This document shows, piece by piece, positions 39,511-49,123 of a stretch of 61,400 nt of DNA. The notes beneath the pieces are model-generated. The model was not told where the DNA came from and made no database searches. It saw nothing but the letters and a program-made list of their open reading frames with translations. The position numbers and the translations under genes are program-made. Origin of the DNA: Actinomycetota bacterium (GTDB taxonomy: Bacteria; Actinomycetota; Rubrobacteria; Rubrobacterales; Rubrobacteraceae); the NCBI GenBank assembly GCA_004563715.1, contig SIRX01000146.1, forward strand, positions 1 through 61,400. Direction: 5' to 3'. Numbering within the stretch: the first letter of the stretch is position 1; each line of letters starts with the position of its first letter.

Positions 39511-40344
39511 CTACGTCGAACGGCTCGCGGCGCGCTCCTCGAGGGCCTGGCGGTCCAGAACGAAGATGCGGCGGTTGCGGACCTCGATCAAACGCTCCCG
39601 CTGAAGCTCGGTCATGGCCTTGGAGACCGCCTCGCGGGTGGAGGCGATCATGCTCGCCAGCTCCGCGTGGGTGAGGCGGAGGTCCAGCATGGTCTCCTCG
39701 CCTTTTTCCCGCCCGAACCTCCCGGAGAGGTTGAGTAGCAGCGCCGCCAGCCGGCTGGAGACCTCCCGGTGCAGGAGGGTTACTATGAGCGCGTCCGACT
39801 GCCGCATGCGGTCGGAGATCGCGGAGAACAGGGCGAGGGCGAGGTCCGGCCGCCGTTTGACGAGCCAGGCCACCGCGGGCTTGCGCACCATCGCGACCCG
39901 GGCTTCGGCCTGGGCCTCGGCGAAGTCGTCCTGCGCGCCGCCCTCGGTCAGGTCGAGCCTGCCGAACATGCCGCCGTCTTTGAGCAGGGCTACCGTGGCC
40001 TCCTTGAAGTCCCCGTAAGTCTTGTATACCCGGACCGTGCCCGAGCGCAGGAAGTAGAGGTACTCACCGGGGTCTCCGGGGCTGAAGATCATCTCTCCCG
40101 TTTCGAAGCGCCGCTCGACCACCCGCAGCCCGGACCGTTCGAACTCCTTGAGTACGGAGGCCTCTGGAGGAGCGGTGGGGGCGGCCGGCGAACCGTTTCT
40201 CGGGCGCGAAGCCTCCCGCAGCGGCGCCCGGTCCATCGTGGCGAGCACCCCGGCCGCCGCCATTGCGTAGAGTCCGGCGGCCATCCCGGGCCTCTGGTAT
40301 GTCTTCCGGGTCACATCGACCAGCTTTTCCAGAAGGATCTTCAC
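39511..40344 (-). CDS. Crp/Fnr family transcriptional regulator
   Basis: cNMP-binding fold (MIFSPGDPGEYLYFLRSGTVRVY) and HTH (LTHAELASMIASTREAVSKAMTELQRERLIEVRNRRIFVLD); GTG start. Confidence 0.88.
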   Translation of the reverse strand: MKILLEKLVDVTRKTYQRPGMAAGLYAMAAAGVLATMDRAPLREASRPRNGSPAAPTAPPEASVLKEFERSGLRVVERRFETGEMIFSPGDPGEYLYFLRSGTVRVYKTYGDFKEATVALLKDGGMFGRLDLTEGGAQDDFAEAQAEARVAMVRKPAVAWLVKRRPDLALALFSAISDRMRQSDALIVTLLHREVSSRLAALLLNLSGRFGREKGEETMLDLRLTHAELASMIASTREAVSKAMTELQRERLIEVRNRRIFVLDRQALEERAASRST

Positions 40345-40600: not shown

Positions 40601-41863
40601 TTGCCAGACCACATTGACTTCAATCGCGTTCAGGAACGGTCGGCCCCGGGTTCGACGAACGGTGCCTCGCGCCGCGACGACATATTCGACAAGACACATG
40701 CTTTTACCCGGGCCGACGAGGCGATGGCCCTCGGGGTCTACCCGTACTTCAAGCCGATCTCCGGGCAGGGCACCGGCACCGTCGTGGTCGACGGGCGGGA
40801 GATGATCATTACCGGCTCCAACGACTACCTGGGGCTTACCCAGGACCCGCGCTTGCAGGAGGCGGCGTCCGCCGTCTTCGACCGGTACGGTACGAGCTGC
40901 ACCGGCTCGCGGTTTCTGACGGGCACGCTGGAGCTGCATGAGGAGCTGGAGCGGCGGCTGGCGGGCTTCATGGGCGCCGAGGCGGTGCTCACGTTCAGCA
41001 CCGGCTTTCTTGGGGCGCTCTCGGTGATCAGCGCCCTCGCGGGGCGTCAGGACATCCTGTACTTCGACCGGGAGAACCACGCCTGCCTCTACGACGGGGC
41101 GCGGCTCTCGTTCGGCACGCTGCGCAAGTACCGCCACAACGACCTGGAAGACCTGGAGCGCCTGCTGGAGAAAGACGCGGGCAAGCCCGGGGGGCGCATG
41201 ATCGTCACCGACGGCGTGTTCTCGATGAGCGGGCACGTCGCCGACCTGCCGGGCATCGTCGAGCTCGCCCGGACCTACGGGGCCCGGGTAGCCGTGGACG
41301 ACGCCCACGCCACCGGCGTGCTCGGCGCTTCCGGACGCGGGACGCCGGAGCACTTCGGGCTCCAAGGCGAGATAGACCTGGTCATAGGGACCTTCTCGAA
41401 ATCCTTCGCCTCCGTGGGCGGTTTCGTCGCCGGCCCGGAGCCGGTCGTGAAGTACGTAAAGCACCACGCCCGGCCGTTCATCTTTACCGCCGCGCTCCCG
41501 GCCATGCAGGTCGCCGCCACCCTCAAGGCCTTAGACATCATGGAGACCGAGCCCCAGCACCGCGAGAAGCTGCTGGCGAACGCCGAGCGGTTGCGCGGGG
41601 GCTTGGGCGGCCTCGGCTACGACACTCTAGGCTCCGAGACGCCCATAGTGCCCGTCGTCATAGGGCCGGACGACCTGACGGTGATCTTCTGGAAGGCCCT
41701 CTGGGAGGGCGGCGTGTTCACCACCCCGGCCTTGCCACCCGGCGTCCCGCAGAACCAGAGCCTCATCCGCACCAGCGTCAACGCCACCCACACCACTCAG
41801 CAGGTGGACGCCCTGATCGAGGTCTTCTCCAGGGTCGGCCGGGACCTGGGCGTAATCGGCTAG
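40601..41863 (+). CDS. Alpha-oxoamine synthase, serine palmitoyltransferase-like
   Basis: TTG start with GGAGG; GSNDYLGLTQDPRL, YGTSCTGSRFLTGTLELHEELERRLAGFMGAEAVLTFSTGFLG, VAVDDAHATGVLG, GTFSKSFASVGGFVAG (PLP Lys). Confidence 0.85.
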   Translation: MPDHIDFNRVQERSAPGSTNGASRRDDIFDKTHAFTRADEAMALGVYPYFKPISGQGTGTVVVDGREMIITGSNDYLGLTQDPRLQEAASAVFDRYGTSCTGSRFLTGTLELHEELERRLAGFMGAEAVLTFSTGFLGALSVISALAGRQDILYFDRENHACLYDGARLSFGTLRKYRHNDLEDLERLLEKDAGKPGGRMIVTDGVFSMSGHVADLPGIVELARTYGARVAVDDAHATGVLGASGRGTPEHFGLQGEIDLVIGTFSKSFASVGGFVAGPEPVVKYVKHHARPFIFTAALPAMQVAATLKALDIMETEPQHREKLLANAERLRGGLGGLGYDTLGSETPIVPVVIGPDDLTVIFWKALWEGGVFTTPALPPGVPQNQSLIRTSVNATHTTQQVDALIEVFSRVGRDLGVIG

Positions 41864-41875
41864 GAGACAGGCCCG

Positions 41876-43015
41876 TTGGCCGGCCGGCAAGCAGTAGGTT
41901 CAGGAGCCCCAAAGGTCCGGCCCGTCGGGACCCGCCGAGACCTCACGCGGTTTATCCGGTACCCGTTCAAGAAGTACCGGGAAGACCCGTGCTGGGTGCC
42001 GCCCCTGGTTTTCGACGAGCGGCGGAAGTTCGACCCTAGAAAGAACCCCTTCTACGAGCACGCCCGGATCCGGCTCTTTCTCGCCGAGCGAGACGGAGAG
42101 GTGGTGGGGCGCGTCGCCGCCATAGACGACGACAACCACAACGCGGCCCACGCGGAGAACCTGGTCTTCTTCGGCTTTTTCGAGGCGGAGGACGCGGCGG
42201 CCGCCGGGGCGCTGCTGGCGGAGATAGAGGCGTGGGGGAGGAGCCTCGGCCGAAACGCGGTGCGGGGTCCGGCGAACCCCTCGATGAACGACGGCGCGGG
42301 CTTCCAGGTGGACGCATTCGATACGCAGCCCTTTGTCATGATGCCGTACAACCCGCCCGCGTACCCACGCTACGCCGAGGCCGCCGGTTACGAAAAGGTC
42401 AAAGACCTCTACGCCTACCTATTCGAGCGCGACTGGGAGGTGGGAGAGAAGATCGGGCGCCTCGCCACCCGGGTCCGCCGCCGCTACGATCCCGTCGTCC
42501 GCACCGGCGACGCAAAGAACTTCGACGCGGAGCTCGGGCTGTTCAAGAAGCTCTACAACGAAGCCTGGGTAGAGAACTGGGGCTTCGTGCGCTACACCGA
42601 CGCCGAGTTCGACCGTCTCGCCCGCGAGTTGAAGCTCGTCGTGGACCCGGACCTGGTGGTCTTTGTCGAGCTTGGAGGCGAGGTGGCCGGCCTGGGCCTC
42701 TGCCTGCCCGACGTAAACCAGGTGCTCAAAAAGGCCCGCGGCAGGATCTTCCCCAGCGGCCTGATGGCGTTCCTGAACCGCAAACGGATCGTAGACCAGA
42801 TCCGGCTCGTGATCCTGGGCGTCATGCCCCGCTTCCGCGGCAGGGGGCTCGAAACGGTGATCATCGACGAGCTCTACCGCCACGCCATCCGGAAGGGCTA
42901 CCGGCGCTGCGAGTGCTCGTGGGTGCTGGAGGACAACCGGGCGGTGATGCGCGGCCTGGAGGCGGCGGGCGCCCAACGCTATAAAACTTACCGAATGTAC
43001 CAGAAGCCTCTGTAG
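41876..43015 (+). CDS. GNAT-family acyltransferase (candidate bacterial ceramide synthase-like)
   Basis: NPFYEHARIRLFLAERDGEVVGRVAAIDDDNHN; PRFRGRGLETVIIDELYRHAIRKGYRRCECSWVLEDNRAVMRGLEAAGAQRYKTYRMYQKPL. Confidence 0.8.
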   Translation: MAGRQAVGSGAPKVRPVGTRRDLTRFIRYPFKKYREDPCWVPPLVFDERRKFDPRKNPFYEHARIRLFLAERDGEVVGRVAAIDDDNHNAAHAENLVFFGFFEAEDAAAAGALLAEIEAWGRSLGRNAVRGPANPSMNDGAGFQVDAFDTQPFVMMPYNPPAYPRYAEAAGYEKVKDLYAYLFERDWEVGEKIGRLATRVRRRYDPVVRTGDAKNFDAELGLFKKLYNEAWVENWGFVRYTDAEFDRLARELKLVVDPDLVVFVELGGEVAGLGLCLPDVNQVLKKARGRIFPSGLMAFLNRKRIVDQIRLVILGVMPRFRGRGLETVIIDELYRHAIRKGYRRCECSWVLEDNRAVMRGLEAAGAQRYKTYRMYQKPL

Positions 43016-43021
43016 GCCCGG

Positions 43022-43987
43022 ATGCCGGAGAGCGTACTGGTGACCGGAGCAACGGGCTTTCTCGGCAGCCACATGGCGGAGGCCTTCGCCGCGGCGGGAT
43101 ACGAGGTGCGCTGCGGCCTGCGGGCCACGAGCGAACCGCGTTGGATCTCCGGCCTTCCCGTCGAGCCCGTGCCGCTCGACCTCGACCGTCCGGCGGACCT
43201 GACCCGCGCGCTGCGCGGCGTGGACGTGGTGGCCCACGCCGCCGGTATTACCCGGGCGCGCCGGCCGGAGGACTACGAGCGGGTGAACGCCGTCGGCACC
43301 CGGCGGCTCGCCGCCGCCGCGCGAGAAGCCGGGGTGCGGCGCTTCGTACTGGTCAGCAGCCTCGCCGCCCGCGGCCCCGACGGCTTCGGGTATCCCGCCA
43401 GCGCCTACGGCCGCAGCAAGCTGGCGGCCGAGACGTATCTCCGCTCCCTCGGTGGGCCGATGAAGACCGTCGTCCTGCGTCCAGCCGCCGTCTACGGACC
43501 GCGCGACACGGACCTCCTACCCCTGTTCCGGATGGCGGCCTCCGGCCTGCTCGCGCTCCCGGCCGGACCGGGCCTCCTGCAACCCGTATACGCGGCCGAC
43601 GCGGCGGCCGCCGTCCTGGCCGCCGCCCGCGAGCCGGAGGTAGGCTCCGGACCCTTCCCGGTGGCCGAGGCCGCCCGCTACACGTGGCCGGAGGTCGCCC
43701 GCCATCTGGCTGCCACGCTCGGATATTCCGTCCGCACCGTTCGCCTCCCGGCCGCGGCTTTCCGGATAGGGGGCCGCCTGGCCGAACGGGCGGCGAAGCT
43801 CCAGGGCTCCCCACCACTCTTCGACGAACGTCGGGCCGAGGACCTAGCCGTTTACACCTGGACCTGTGACCCCTCGGCTACGGAGAAAGCGCTCGGGTGG
43901 CGGGCGGAGGTGCCGCTGCCGGGGGGCCTGGCGCGGACCGCCCGTTGGTACGAGGAGGCGGGTTGGCTCCGTACCGGGTCGCGATGA
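43022..43987 (+). CDS. NAD(P)-dependent epimerase/dehydratase (candidate CerR-like reductase)
   Basis: VTGATGFLGSHMAEAFAAAGYEV Rossmann; YGRSKLAAE. Confidence 0.85.
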   Translation: MPESVLVTGATGFLGSHMAEAFAAAGYEVRCGLRATSEPRWISGLPVEPVPLDLDRPADLTRALRGVDVVAHAAGITRARRPEDYERVNAVGTRRLAAAAREAGVRRFVLVSSLAARGPDGFGYPASAYGRSKLAAETYLRSLGGPMKTVVLRPAAVYGPRDTDLLPLFRMAASGLLALPAGPGLLQPVYAADAAAAVLAAAREPEVGSGPFPVAEAARYTWPEVARHLAATLGYSVRTVRLPAAAFRIGGRLAERAAKLQGSPPLFDERRAEDLAVYTWTCDPSATEKALGWRAEVPLPGGLARTARWYEEAGWLRTGSR

Positions 43988-45126
43988 GCGGCCGGCCCCT
44001 CATCCTCTTCGCCACCATCGCCGCCGGCGGCGGGCACGTGGCGACGGCCCGGGCGATGGCCGAGGCCGTCGAGCTTCTCCACCCGGGGCGCTTCGACCTG
44101 CGCGTCTCGGACTACATGAAAGAGGTCGGCGTCGCGGGCCTCGACCGGCGGCACAAGGACTCCTGGCGCCGGGCGTTGCGCTACCCGGTCCTCGCCCGCA
44201 CCGGCCAGCGCCTCATAGACGCCTCCCCCCGGCTGACCGTCGCCGCGCAGCGCCGCCTGCTGAGAGGTTTTGCCCGCGCCGCCGCCGAGGACCTGGGCAG
44301 AAAAAGGCCGCTGCTCGTCGTCTCCAACCACGGCCTCATCACCGCGGGGCTGGCCGAGGCTCGGCGGCTCCACGGCCTGCGGGTTCCGGTCCTCACCTTC
44401 GCCACCGAGCCTCACGGCATCAGCGCCTACTGGGCGGAGCCGCGGGCGGAGCACGTCGTGGTTCCTTCTGAGAGCATCCGCCGCCGGCTCGCGCGTTTCG
44501 GCGTGCCGGCGGCGAAGCTGGCGGTGGTGGGCTACCCGGTGCGGCAGGCGTTCCTGAACGCGCCCACGAAAGAGGAGGCCCGGGCCCAACTGGGCCTTCG
44601 GCAACGCCTCACCTGCCTCGCCGCCTTCGGGGGCGAGGGTGTAGGAGGCAACCAGCGGCGCCTGGTGCGTACCCTCCTGGACTCGGAGACCGCCCCGCAG
44701 GTCGTCGTGGTTACCGGGCGCAACCCGGCCGCGAGGGCCGCGCTGGAGGAGCTTGCCGTCGAAGACGACCGGCTCCGGGTAGAAGGTTACGTGGACGACG
44801 TCGCCTCCTACCTGGCGGCGGCCGACGTGTTCGTGGGCAAGGCGGGGCCGGCCTCGGTCTACGAGGCGCTGGCGGTGGGGCGGCCCGCGATCCTCACCGG
44901 CTACGCCGGCCTGAACGAGCGCGGCGTAGCCCGCTTTGTCGAGCGAGAGGAGATGGGCGTCTTCGCCGGGACCGGCGCGAGGTTCCGGGAGAGCCTGCGG
45001 CACTACGCCTCAAACCCGGCACTTCTGGAGGAGACGGCGCTGCGGTGCCGGGCGCTGGACCTGGGGTACGCGACGGAGCGCCTGGCCCGCTACGTCGTCC
45101 GCTACGCGCTGGAGAGGGGTAGCTAG
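43984..45126 (+). CDS. GT28-type glycosyltransferase (MGDG synthase/MurG-like)
   Basis: FATIAAGGGHVATARAMAEAV; VVGYPVRQAF; GYVDDVASYLAAADVFVGKAGPASVYEALAVGRPAIL. Confidence 0.88.
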   Translation: MSGRPLILFATIAAGGGHVATARAMAEAVELLHPGRFDLRVSDYMKEVGVAGLDRRHKDSWRRALRYPVLARTGQRLIDASPRLTVAAQRRLLRGFARAAAEDLGRKRPLLVVSNHGLITAGLAEARRLHGLRVPVLTFATEPHGISAYWAEPRAEHVVVPSESIRRRLARFGVPAAKLAVVGYPVRQAFLNAPTKEEARAQLGLRQRLTCLAAFGGEGVGGNQRRLVRTLLDSETAPQVVVVTGRNPAARAALEELAVEDDRLRVEGYVDDVASYLAAADVFVGKAGPASVYEALAVGRPAILTGYAGLNERGVARFVEREEMGVFAGTGARFRESLRHYASNPALLEETALRCRALDLGYATERLARYVVRYALERGS

Positions 45127-45127
45127 C

Positions 45128-46180
45128 GTGCTCCGAAACTTGCTGGTCCGGACCGGGGTCTTCCTCGCGCTCAGCCTGGGACTCGGTATTTCGGGCCTGT
45201 ACCTGGTGGCCGGCGCGGAGGTTTTCCGGGCTGAGACCTACCGCGTCAAGGACCTGAGCGCCGGCATACTTTTCGTGTGCCTGGCGGCGTTCCTGATGGA
45301 GTGGCTGATGCCGCCCGTGAGGCTCCTGCTGTTGTGCAAAAACCAGCGCGTAGGCATGACCTACCGTGCGGCGCTGCTCGTGCACCTCGTCTCGGTCTTC
45401 GGGGCCGTGGTCACGCCGGGCAACGCCGGGCAGGCCCCGGCGGCCGTGGCGGCAATCAAAAGCACCGGCGCGCCCCTGGGCAAGAGCCTCGGGGTCGTAC
45501 TGCAGGTCTTTATCCTGGACCTGTTCTTCTTTGCCTGGGCCGTACCGCTGAGCCTCTTGTTCTTGATCTCCACCCGCGCCGTCGCGCTGCCCGGGAGCGT
45601 CGAGGCCGCAGCGCTCCTGATGTCTGTCCTGGCGCTCGCCGGAGCCGTGGCGCTAGGCCGCTATCCCCGGCCCTTAATGGCCGCGCTGCACGCCCTGGCG
45701 AAGCCTCCGCCGCTCCGCCGCTTCGAAGCCCGGCTGCGCCGGGTCGCCCGGGATTACGGCCGGAGCGTCTGGCTCTACCGGAGCACGCCCCTCGCCCGGC
45801 GCCTGGCGCTCAACACCGTGACCGCCGTCCACTGGCTCGCCGCGTTCGTTCTCCTCTGGGGGCTGCTCGAGGTCTACGGCGTGGACGTGGGCCTCGGGGT
45901 GACGCTGGCGCTGCTCAACATCCTCACGCTGGTCTCCCAGGCCGTGCCCACACCGGGCGGGGCGGGTTTCGTGGAGGCCGCCGTAGGTTTGAGCCTCGGC
46001 ACCTACGCCACGGGTGGCAGCGTGGCCGCGGCCCTGCTCATCTGGCGGCTGCTGGCCTTCAATGTCATCTTCCTGATCGGTCCCGCTGCTGGCTGGCTTC
46101 TGTACCTCCGGGCGGGCGGCCCAGGCCGGAGAGCCGCAGAAAGAAAGCGTCCCGGACGGCGGTCGGCAGCAGGGCCATGA
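45128..46180 (+). CDS. Lysylphosphatidylglycerol synthase TM/UPF0104-type flippase-like membrane protein
   Basis: Multi-TM with VVTPGNAGQAPAAVAAIKSTGAPLGKSLGVVLQVFILD and VPTPGGAGFVEAAVGLSL. Confidence 0.82.
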   Translation: MLRNLLVRTGVFLALSLGLGISGLYLVAGAEVFRAETYRVKDLSAGILFVCLAAFLMEWLMPPVRLLLLCKNQRVGMTYRAALLVHLVSVFGAVVTPGNAGQAPAAVAAIKSTGAPLGKSLGVVLQVFILDLFFFAWAVPLSLLFLISTRAVALPGSVEAAALLMSVLALAGAVALGRYPRPLMAALHALAKPPPLRRFEARLRRVARDYGRSVWLYRSTPLARRLALNTVTAVHWLAAFVLLWGLLEVYGVDVGLGVTLALLNILTLVSQAVPTPGGAGFVEAAVGLSLGTYATGGSVAAALLIWRLLAFNVIFLIGPAAGWLLYLRAGGPGRRAAERKRPGRRSAAGP

Positions 46181-47930
46181 CGCGGGCCGGGACCGCGTCG
46201 AGCGTGGCGAGCCGGCGCGCCGGCGTCCGCCGCGAGAGCGCCGCTTTTACCACGGTGTCCGCCACCTTCTCGACGCTGGTCGCGTTGCCGGTGCCCCACA
46301 GCGGGCTCTCCAGGAAAGCCTCCAGGTAGCCGCCCCAGCCGTCGCGGGCGGCGGAGGCCTGCTTTCTCAGGGAAGCCTTCGCCTTCTCGGCGAAGCCGGT
46401 GTCTATCGCGCCGGGGATGAGCACCACGACTTCCACGCCCCAGGGCTTGAGCTCCATGCGCAGGGCGTCGCTCATGGCTTCGAGGGCGTATTTCGAGGCC
46501 GAGTAGGCTCCCATAAACGGCGTCGTGACAGAGCCGTTGGTGGAGCTGATGTTGATGATGCGGCCCCAACCCCGCTCCCGCATCCCGGGCGCCACCGCCC
46601 GCGCCAGCAGGAGGGGGCCGTAGGCGTTGACGCCGAACTGCAGCTCCACGTCCCCGAACGCCTGCCTTTCGAGGGCGTCCGGCCTGGCTAGCCCCGCGAC
46701 GTTTACCAGCAGGTCCACGGCTCCGCCCCGGCTTTCTATCTCCTCCACGGCCGCCGCGACGCTCTCTTTGGAGGTGACGTCCAGGGCGAGTGGGTGTGCG
46801 TCCTCGATGCCTGCGGGCGGCTCCAGGTCCGCCGCCCAGACCGTTATTCCCTTTCCGGCCAGCTTGCGGGCCACGGCCCGGCCCAGGCCGCCCGCCGCGC
46901 CCGTGACGAGCGCGACCGAGGGCCGCCGCAGCAGGCCCGCACGCCGCAGCCACGCCTCCGTCTCCCGCAAGCCGGCCTCCAGGCTCACCTCGGGCTCGAA
47001 GCCCAGGATTCGTCTCGCTCTCTCTCCGGCGTACGTCGCGCGGCTCGTCATCACGCCGACCATCTCGGGGACGGCGCGGGGCCGCCGGCCGAGGGCGCGC
47101 TCCGCCCTCTCTGCCGCCCGGGCGCCGGCCCGGGCCAGCGGGGCCGGTACGCGGCGCAGGGGTTTCCCCGTCATCGTTGCGTAGGAGCCCAGAAACTCGT
47201 TCCACGTCACGGGTCCCGCGCCGACGTTGAACGTCTCGCCCGCGGCCTCCGGGACGGAGCCGGCCAGCTCGAAAGCCCGGGCCACATCCTCAACGTAGAC
47301 CGGGTCCGCCAGGTCTTCACCGTCGCCGATCACGACGGGCAGCCCTCTGGAGATCGCGGCGAACGGCGCCTCCGTCCAGGACGGAGACCCGGGACCGTAG
47401 ATCATGGTCGGCCGCAACACCACGAGATCCAGCCCGGCACGCCCGGCCTCGCGCCGCGCCGCCCTCTCGGCCTCTATCTTGGTATCCCCGTAGAGGTCGC
47501 CTACGCTTCGGAGCGGCCGCTCCTCGGTGACGAACCCTTCCCGCACCGGGCCGTACACCGCGATGCTGCTCGCCAGCACCACCCGCCGCGTACCGGCCTC
47601 CGCGGCGGCCCGCACCACGTTCTCCGTGCCGCCGACGTTCACCGCGTAGGCCAGCTGCTCATCGAAAGGCGTCCCCATCCAGGCCGCCAGGTGGAACACC
47701 ACCTGACATCCCCGGACGAGCTCCCCGACGTTTCTGGCCTCCCGAACGTCGCCACGCACCGGCTCCGCCCCGGTGCTGCCCAGGCGTTCCGCACCGGCTT
47801 GGTCGCGCACCAGCCCCCGGACGCGATGCCCCTGCTGCACGAGACGGCGAACCAGCGCCGTTCCCAGGGAGCCTCCGGCCCCGGTGACCGCGACCGCCGC
47901 CGGGGAGCTTCTCGTTTCGTTGTTCTGCAC
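46065..47930 (-). CDS. Fusion protein: N-terminal NAD-dependent epimerase + C-terminal short-chain dehydrogenase
   Basis: Two Rossmann motifs (VTGAGGSLGTALVRRLV; VTGAAGGLGRAVARKLA), YGDTKIEAE and YSASKYALEAM catalytic motifs. Confidence 0.88.
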   Translation of the reverse strand: MQNNETRSSPAAVAVTGAGGSLGTALVRRLVQQGHRVRGLVRDQAGAERLGSTGAEPVRGDVREARNVGELVRGCQVVFHLAAWMGTPFDEQLAYAVNVGGTENVVRAAAEAGTRRVVLASSIAVYGPVREGFVTEERPLRSVGDLYGDTKIEAERAARREAGRAGLDLVVLRPTMIYGPGSPSWTEAPFAAISRGLPVVIGDGEDLADPVYVEDVARAFELAGSVPEAAGETFNVGAGPVTWNEFLGSYATMTGKPLRRVPAPLARAGARAAERAERALGRRPRAVPEMVGVMTSRATYAGERARRILGFEPEVSLEAGLRETEAWLRRAGLLRRPSVALVTGAAGGLGRAVARKLAGKGITVWAADLEPPAGIEDAHPLALDVTSKESVAAAVEEIESRGGAVDLLVNVAGLARPDALERQAFGDVELQFGVNAYGPLLLARAVAPGMRERGWGRIINISSTNGSVTTPFMGAYSASKYALEAMSDALRMELKPWGVEVVVLIPGAIDTGFAEKAKASLRKQASAARDGWGGYLEAFLESPLWGTGNATSVEKVADTVVKAALSRRTPARRLATLDAVPARVMALLPTAVRDAFFLRLSGLGRPPGGTEASQQRDRSGR

Positions 47931-49123
47931 TATAGGTCCGTCCTCTCGTCCGGTTTCTCTCTACGTGCGGCCGTCGCCGGGGCCAGCAGTGAGGCGTAGA
48001 TCTCCTCCAGCCGGCGTCCGCTCTCGTGTACGTCGTGCGCCCGGGCAGTCCGCCCGGCGTTTCGTTGCAGACGCCGGAGCCTCTCCGGGTCCTGCAGCAG
48101 GCCGTCTACGGCTCGCGCCGCTCTCTCCAGATCGTCCGCCTCGTAGCAGAGACCGCAGCCGGCTTGCCGGACCATGTCGCACACCGCGCTGGTCGCCGAC
48201 CGGAGGGCTATTACGGCGCATCCCCGCGCCATCGCCTCCAGGGTGGCGATGCTCTGGAGCTCGGTCGGAGAAGGCATCAAGAACAAATCGCTGGCCTCGA
48301 GAAGGTCCTGCTTCTCCGTTTCCGGCACGTAGCCCAGAAAGCTCACCACTTCTTCCAGACCCAGCTCCTTTCTGCGCCGCTCCAACGGCTGGCGCAGCGG
48401 CCCCGCACCGGAGATCAACAGTCGGAAGTCCCGGCGTCGCGCTGCCAGGGCCGCGGCTATGTCCAGCAGGTCCAGGGGACGTTTCTCGTGCGAGAGGCGG
48501 CCTACGTGGGCGAGCAGGAACTTGTCGCCGGCCAGATGCCGCCCCCGCAGGTTGGCCGCGCGTTCGCGGCTGCCGGGGTCTCTGTGCGGGAGCCGGAGCC
48601 CGTTGGAGACGACGTGGACCGGGCGGGAGGTGTAGGAAGCCGCCAGCCGGGCGGCGAACGGCGTGGGCGCGACCAGGCAGTCCGGGTGGCGGTAGAGGAA
48701 CGTATACCAGGCGTGCAGCACCCGGGAGACCAGAGGCCGCAGCCGCTCGAAGTGGAGCGTCATGCTCTCCTCCTGGGTGTGGAAGCCCATCACGGCCGGC
48801 ACGTCCGCCCTGCGGACGGCCTGGAGCGCCCGCAGGGCGAGCGGCGTCGGGGTGTTGACCTGGAGCACTTCGGCCCAGGTTACCATCTCCGCTATGGCCG
48901 ACCGGCGGGGCAGGGCGAGTTGCGTCTGCTTTCCGCCCGGGCGCCACGCGGGCAACCGGGTGACGCGCACGCCGGGGGGCGGACCGGCCGGCGACTTCTC
49001 GGTTCCGGCCAGGGCACGCACCTCGTGGCCGCGGGCCAGCAGGGCCTCGATGTGCCCCTCCGTGGCGGCGGCCTGGCCGCCGTAACCGGGGTACAGGTCG
49101 TCGGCGACGAACGCTACGCGCAT
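47930..49123 (-). CDS. GT4-family glycosyltransferase
   Basis: MRVAFVADDLYPGYGGQAAATEGHIEAL; VGRLSHEKRPLDLLDIAAAL; PSPTELQSIATLEAMARGCAVIA; stop overlaps next gene's start. Confidence 0.9.
   Translation of the reverse strand: MRVAFVADDLYPGYGGQAAATEGHIEALLARGHEVRALAGTEKSPAGPPPGVRVTRLPAWRPGGKQTQLALPRRSAIAEMVTWAEVLQVNTPTPLALRALQAVRRADVPAVMGFHTQEESMTLHFERLRPLVSRVLHAWYTFLYRHPDCLVAPTPFAARLAASYTSRPVHVVSNGLRLPHRDPGSRERAANLRGRHLAGDKFLLAHVGRLSHEKRPLDLLDIAAALAARRRDFRLLISGAGPLRQPLERRRKELGLEEVVSFLGYVPETEKQDLLEASDLFLMPSPTELQSIATLEAMARGCAVIALRSATSAVCDMVRQAGCGLCYEADDLERAARAVDGLLQDPERLRRLQRNAGRTARAHDVHESGRRLEEIYASLLAPATAARREKPDERTDL

Follow-up and report, generated by a model that had tools for sequence, protein, structure and literature searches.

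A candidate ceramide biosynthesis triad beside a probable family glycolipid module in the Rubrobacteraceae

Ceramide is a lipid characteristic of animal and plant membranes, and the sphingolipids of Gram-positive bacteria are little explored. In Caulobacter, ceramide is known to be made through Spt, bCerS and CerR (PMC11087976, PMC11324152); the Caulobacter crescentus genes are spt (CC_1162), cerR (CC_1164), cerS (CC_1154), acpR and aasR (PMC11324152, PMC11087976). The order of acylation and reduction in bacterial ceramide synthesis is debated (PMC11087976), and some 40 phyla are reported to carry Spt-like genes (PMC11334938). Among actinobacteria, Streptomyces aurantiacus has been described as a ceramide producer (Stankeviciute 2022, as cited in PMC11743623), and we found no report of a ceramide or other sphingolipid from Rubrobacter in the open-licence literature. 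Here we describe a related locus in a 61,400-nucleotide stretch of DNA from an Actinomycetota bacterium of the Rubrobacteraceae (assembly GCA_004563715.1, contig SIRX01000146.1, positions 1 to 61,400; hereafter the window), which belongs to a draft host genome of 3.47 Mb that is 99% complete. From comparison of sequences and gene neighborhoods, we propose that the seven genes of the locus, P1 to P7, probably join a ceramide triad (P1-P3) to an older glycolipid module of the family (P4-P7).

The putative ceramide triad

The assignment of P1-P3 as the published triad of Spt, a bCerS-type GNAT and CerR is well supported by phylogeny, best hit and conserved clustering. The preliminary description, made from the sequence alone, had matched these three genes to the known bacterial ceramide activities, and the match was borne out: relatives keep the gene order of the triad, and in many phyla the genes lie clustered, beyond what chance would produce. 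Following the activities, substrates and order known from Caulobacter, P1 would convert L-serine and a long-chain acyl thioester to 3-keto-sphinganine, P2 would place a second acyl chain onto the amine, and P3 would reduce the ketone to yield dihydroceramide.

P1 is likely an Spt-type synthase with serine as its likely substrate. Its top NCBIfam match is SerpalmtaseCFB, the Bacteroidetes-type serine palmitoyltransferase (SPT), at 441.8 bits, and its top PDB matches are SPTs, at 370 bits (8guh, 3a2b) and then 280 bits (2jg2 and relatives). K287 (the pyridoxal phosphate lysine), H180, D253, H256 and R410 are conserved and align with the S. multivorum SPT. P1 also has a GVYPYF(K/R)PI motif, which recurs in the Sphingobacterium SPT 8guh and in several of the triad synthases but not in BioF or Kbl. 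A first synthase tree of 72 rows, with few outgroups, set P1 on the SPT side (support 94/90). After the addition of 20 further synthases taken from these genomes, the rebuilt tree contained a BioF/Kbl-like clade (100/99) that leaves P1 out; in the approximately unbiased (AU) test, joining the P1 family to this clade gave p=0.042. P1 is also the sole member of the alpha-oxoamine synthase superfamily in the host genome, where no bioB scored above cut-off, so it has no evident role in biotin synthesis. The host, without BioF and without bioB above cut-off, is likely a biotin auxotroph.

Two other identities for the synthase and its product bear on this assignment. It is highly improbable that P1 is a BioF (biotin) or Kbl (threonine degradation) enzyme beside unrelated lipid genes. 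The fold is shared, the bioF and glycine C-acetyltransferase models reach 378 and 356 bits, and the sparse set did not exclude P1 as sister of E. coli BioF alone (p=0.106); yet grouping with Kbl-type rows was rejected in that set (p=0.011), the rebuilt tree and the lack of bioB above cut-off both speak for a different role, and the P1 orthologues of the family always adjoin bCerS and CerR. The comparison with BioF and Kbl suggested in the preliminary description came out on the side of Spt in the fuller set, and the suggested search for bioF elsewhere in the genome found no second synthase. Alternatively, the triad might draw on another amino acid (alanine, leading to 1-deoxyceramide, or cysteate or lysine) rather than yield a serine-derived ceramide. 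Spt can accept alanine and further amino acids have been proposed (PMC11334938), and the catalytic residues examined in P1 do not discriminate serine. This product is nonetheless improbable, as solved SPTs lead the structural matches with the cysteate enzyme at 249 bits, and P1 has the GVYPYF(K/R)PI motif in common with the Sphingobacterium SPT.

P2 is, by its sequence relationships, a bCerS-type GNAT. Its predicted structure is a confident tandem GNAT fold (predicted local distance difference test, pLDDT, 93); it resembles further tandem GNATs and, to a lesser degree, an N-acyl-histidine enzyme. A P2 profile scan of named genomes returned 80 loci from many phyla, and neighbors were counted within the fetched flanks: a P1-type synthase lies nearby in 43 of the 80 and a P3-type epimerase in 41, against a chance expectation of a few per cent for the synthase (in 17 sampled genomes, none had more than six synthase matches). 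When spt does not lie beside the GNAT gene, the genome often holds a synthase at another place. One E. coli locus encodes an SPT (599.9 bits, above the NCBIfam cut-off of 500), an acyl carrier protein (ACP), an epimerase, a fatty acyl-AMP ligase and YghO, a homologue of P2 at 31% identity, and adjoins lptF and lptG.

Several variants of this arrangement were also noticed. The E. coli plasmid NZ_MG591698 (L180:1522-7119) and E. coli chromosomes carry a putative Caulobacter-like ceramide gene set, and at least 80% of the spt-ACP-epimerase-AMP ligase-yghO locus is present in 4039 of 5426 complete E. coli genomes. In Myxococcota, a second bCerS-type GNAT copy lies close by (L110:12293-13402, L148:12208-13329, L136:13295-14368). 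Within the phylum of the window, families f29 and f39 (loci L043-L047, L049-L052 and L054-L056) have Spt (40-47% identical to P1) and GNAT (35-39% to P2) as divergent neighbors in eleven loci; in L056, ABC-type genes and a hydrolase stand between the two. These synthases form their own Spt clade, and no P3-type epimerase was found near the f29/f39 pairs.

P3 is a predicted CerR-type reductase. Of all host proteins it best matches the Myxococcus gene that occupies the position of CerR (123.7 bits; P6 reaches 75), and in a tree of short-chain dehydrogenases/reductases (SDRs) P3 and its orthologues share a clade (97/83) with the E. coli member and the epimerases of the triads. The same tree leaves P6, along with eight further extended SDRs from the host, outside the CerR clade. 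P6 was rejected as CerR, since its N-terminal half lies outside that clade and it accompanies the P4-P7 module in genomes that have no triad; a role for it in 3-ketosphinganine reduction (KdsR model, 157 bits) was rejected on the same tree and the same triad-less occurrence.

Of 40 Rubrobacteraceae genomes compared, the host and five more have Spt, the orthologues being 73-77% identical, and each of the six also carries bCerS and CerR in unchanged order. One of these synthases (G054) is identical to that of the Rubrobacter radiotolerans plasmid. With the triad in six genomes of the family, including the named species R. radiotolerans, ceramide production is directly testable.

Several observations weigh against reading P1-P3 in this way. 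P1 falls under every NCBIfam SPT cut-off (441.8/640, 381/500 and 304/670 bits for NF047600, NF047599 and NF047603), as do the triad SPTs of Streptomyces and R. radiotolerans. In the first, sparser set a basal place of P1 beside BioF/Kbl was compatible with the AU test (p=0.755), and the branches setting P1 among the SPTs are moderately supported (94/90, 93/86). The catalytic residues examined are common to the entire superfamily and do not single out serine, and the Caulobacter proteins, CC_1154 among them, entered the comparison through published descriptions. Finally, one relative (G291, L039:1-2772) has bCerS and, at a contig end, the start of CerR; an alcohol-dehydrogenase-like gene takes the position expected for Spt, and no Spt was found in that draft genome, which is 83% complete.

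The probable glycolipid module and possible ceramide head groups

P4-P7 would transfer sugar onto a membrane lipid, probably diacylglycerol, and then move it across the membrane. The nearest NCBIfam match of P4 is PRK13609 (diglucosyl-diacylglycerol synthase), at 86 bits against a 500-bit cut-off. Orthologues of this GT28 gene (58-68% identity) were seen in seven further genomes of the family, and five of these lack bCerS. Two of the relatives, G174 and G388, carry GT28, flippase, epimerase-SDR and GT4 in the arrangement of the window (L194:1055-6207 and L195:1562-6840). Neither Spt nor bCerS was found in G174 (98% complete) or in G388, where the absence is weaker evidence at 60% completeness. 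GT28 and GT4 are convergent throughout L192-L195, in G249 and G301 as well, and a P5-type flippase adjoins GT28 in L042, L194 and L195. Because the same four genes stand in triad-less relatives, P4-P7 do not appear to be dedicated to ceramide.

The preliminary description had proposed the locus as a candidate for glycosphingolipid synthesis. The ceramide backbone portion of that proposal is well supported and the glycosphingolipid portion is not: a glycosylated sphingoid lipid is not established, as P4-P7 recur without the triad and the GT28-flippase pair adjoins the triad only in the window and in G355 (two of six triad genomes). Gene adjacency can mislead here, since the glycosyltransferases resemble a glycosphingolipid operon, yet the four genes also stand together in relatives that yielded no sphingolipid genes.

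It seems rather unlikely that the locus is a single dedicated glycosphingolipid system, in which P1-P3 make the ceramide, P4 and P7 glycosylate it, P6 shapes the sugars and P5 flips the product. The five-gene operon, tightly spaced from P3 through P5, would suit such a system, as would the recurrence of the triad with GT28-flippase in G355; however, L194 and L195 keep the P4-P7 arrangement though they have no triad, an LTA (lipoteichoic acid)-synthase-like gene stands beside the remaining four triads, and GT28 orthologues do not track the pathway (three of seven bCerS-bearing genomes versus 5 of 33 others, p=0.13; two of six for the full triad, p=0.34). Under the preferred reading of two joined modules, the triad lies directly upstream of GT28-flippase in the window and G355, and in the window the start of P4 is translationally coupled to CerR, which makes co-expression probable. 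Part of the ceramide may therefore be glycosylated, though we lean somewhat against it.

Alternatively, the head group could be set by a swappable neighbor, with GT28-flippase giving glycosylceramide (window, G355) and an LTA-synthase-like protein giving phosphoglycerol- or similar ceramide (R. radiotolerans and three others). We consider this unlikely; if true, the LTA-synthase-like route would give a ceramide head group of which no description was found in the open-licence literature. The LTA-synthase-like gene adjoins the triad in four of the six genomes (G054, G026, G319 and G328). As a triad-specific head-group enzyme it is unproven, because Rubrobacteraceae carry many paralogues, and this PF00884 membrane protein has up to 21 matching places in one genome of the family, a striking expansion. 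The window and G355 synthases are sisters with modest support (97/78), so the union of triad and GT28 fits a single event; the P4 tree left the number of such fusions unsettled, single or more.

Layout of the locus

The preliminary description reported a plus-strand operon of SPT-like synthase, GNAT, epimerase, GT28 and UPF0104 flippase-like genes, and a convergent, coupled minus-strand pair of a GT4 and an epimerase-SDR fusion. All seven open reading frames and their families are confirmed, with P6 and P7 overlapping (Table 1). P1-P5 look like a single operon with translational coupling at its end, since the P3 stop and the P4 start overlap as ATGA and P5 begins 1 nt past the P4 stop. The 3' ends of P5 and P6 overlap by 116 bp. 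Also in agreement with the preliminary description, a motif scan saw no ACP-like small open reading frame in the locus, and no AMP-ligase or acyl-ACP synthetase gene is among its open reading frames. A Crp/FNR-type regulator (cNMP_binding + HTH_Crp_2; 39511-40335, minus strand) is divergent from the P1-P5 operon and could regulate it.

Table 1. Genes of the locus, with predicted products; positions are those of the window.
Gene	Position	Strand	Predicted product	Other features
P1	40601-41863	+	Spt-like alpha-oxoamine synthase, PF00155	TTG start, GGAGGG box upstream
P2	41876-43015	+	bCerS-type tandem-GNAT N-acyltransferase, PF00583	
P3	43022-43987	+	CerR-type NAD-dependent reductase, extended SDR	
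P4	43984-45126	+	GT28-like lipid glycosyltransferase (diglucosyl-diacylglycerol-synthase-like)	ATG start
P5	45128-46180	+	PF03706 flippase-like membrane protein	78 bits; GTG start
P6	46065-47930	-	Fusion of extended SDR (HpnA-like) and classical SDR	
P7	47930-49123	-	GT4 glycosyltransferase	Overlaps P6

Comparison with described systems

Compared by published description, the locus resembles the Caulobacter pathway in clustering an Spt, a GNAT ceramide synthase and an NAD-dependent reductase. It differs in its actinobacterial host, in having Spt, bCerS and CerR in one operon, and in holding no ACP or acyl-ACP synthetase gene. The E. coli locus, in turn, has the gene set of Caulobacter CC_1165-CC_1162 together with CC_1154 and second lpt genes (PMC11324152). 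The preliminary proposal of ceramide with glycosyltransferases recalls Caulobacter GSL-2, made through Sgt1 and Sgt2 (PMC6445935). However, Sgt1 and Sgt2 are ceramide-only and encoded away from spt (ccna_00793/00792 versus ccna_01220; PMC6445935), whereas the GT28 of the window has orthologues in triad-less genomes. The Gram-positive diglucosyl-diacylglycerol synthase family is the top NCBIfam match of P4, which lies far under the cut-off of that model.

Within the Actinomycetota, a plasmid of Streptomyces sp. NBC_01001 (L179) carries Spt, GNAT and epimerase consecutively and in the same order, at identities of 44%, 38% and 33%, with no GT28 or flippase annotated in the locus. Another counterpart is plasmid 1 of R. 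radiotolerans RSPS-4 (NZ_CP007515, L177:10725-16973), where the triad lies near type I-D CRISPR genes. Its three genes are orthologous to those of the window (76/65/67% identical); unlike the window, this triad is plasmid-borne, and the genes downstream of it encode an LTA synthase family protein and a small multidrug exporter in place of GT28-flippase.

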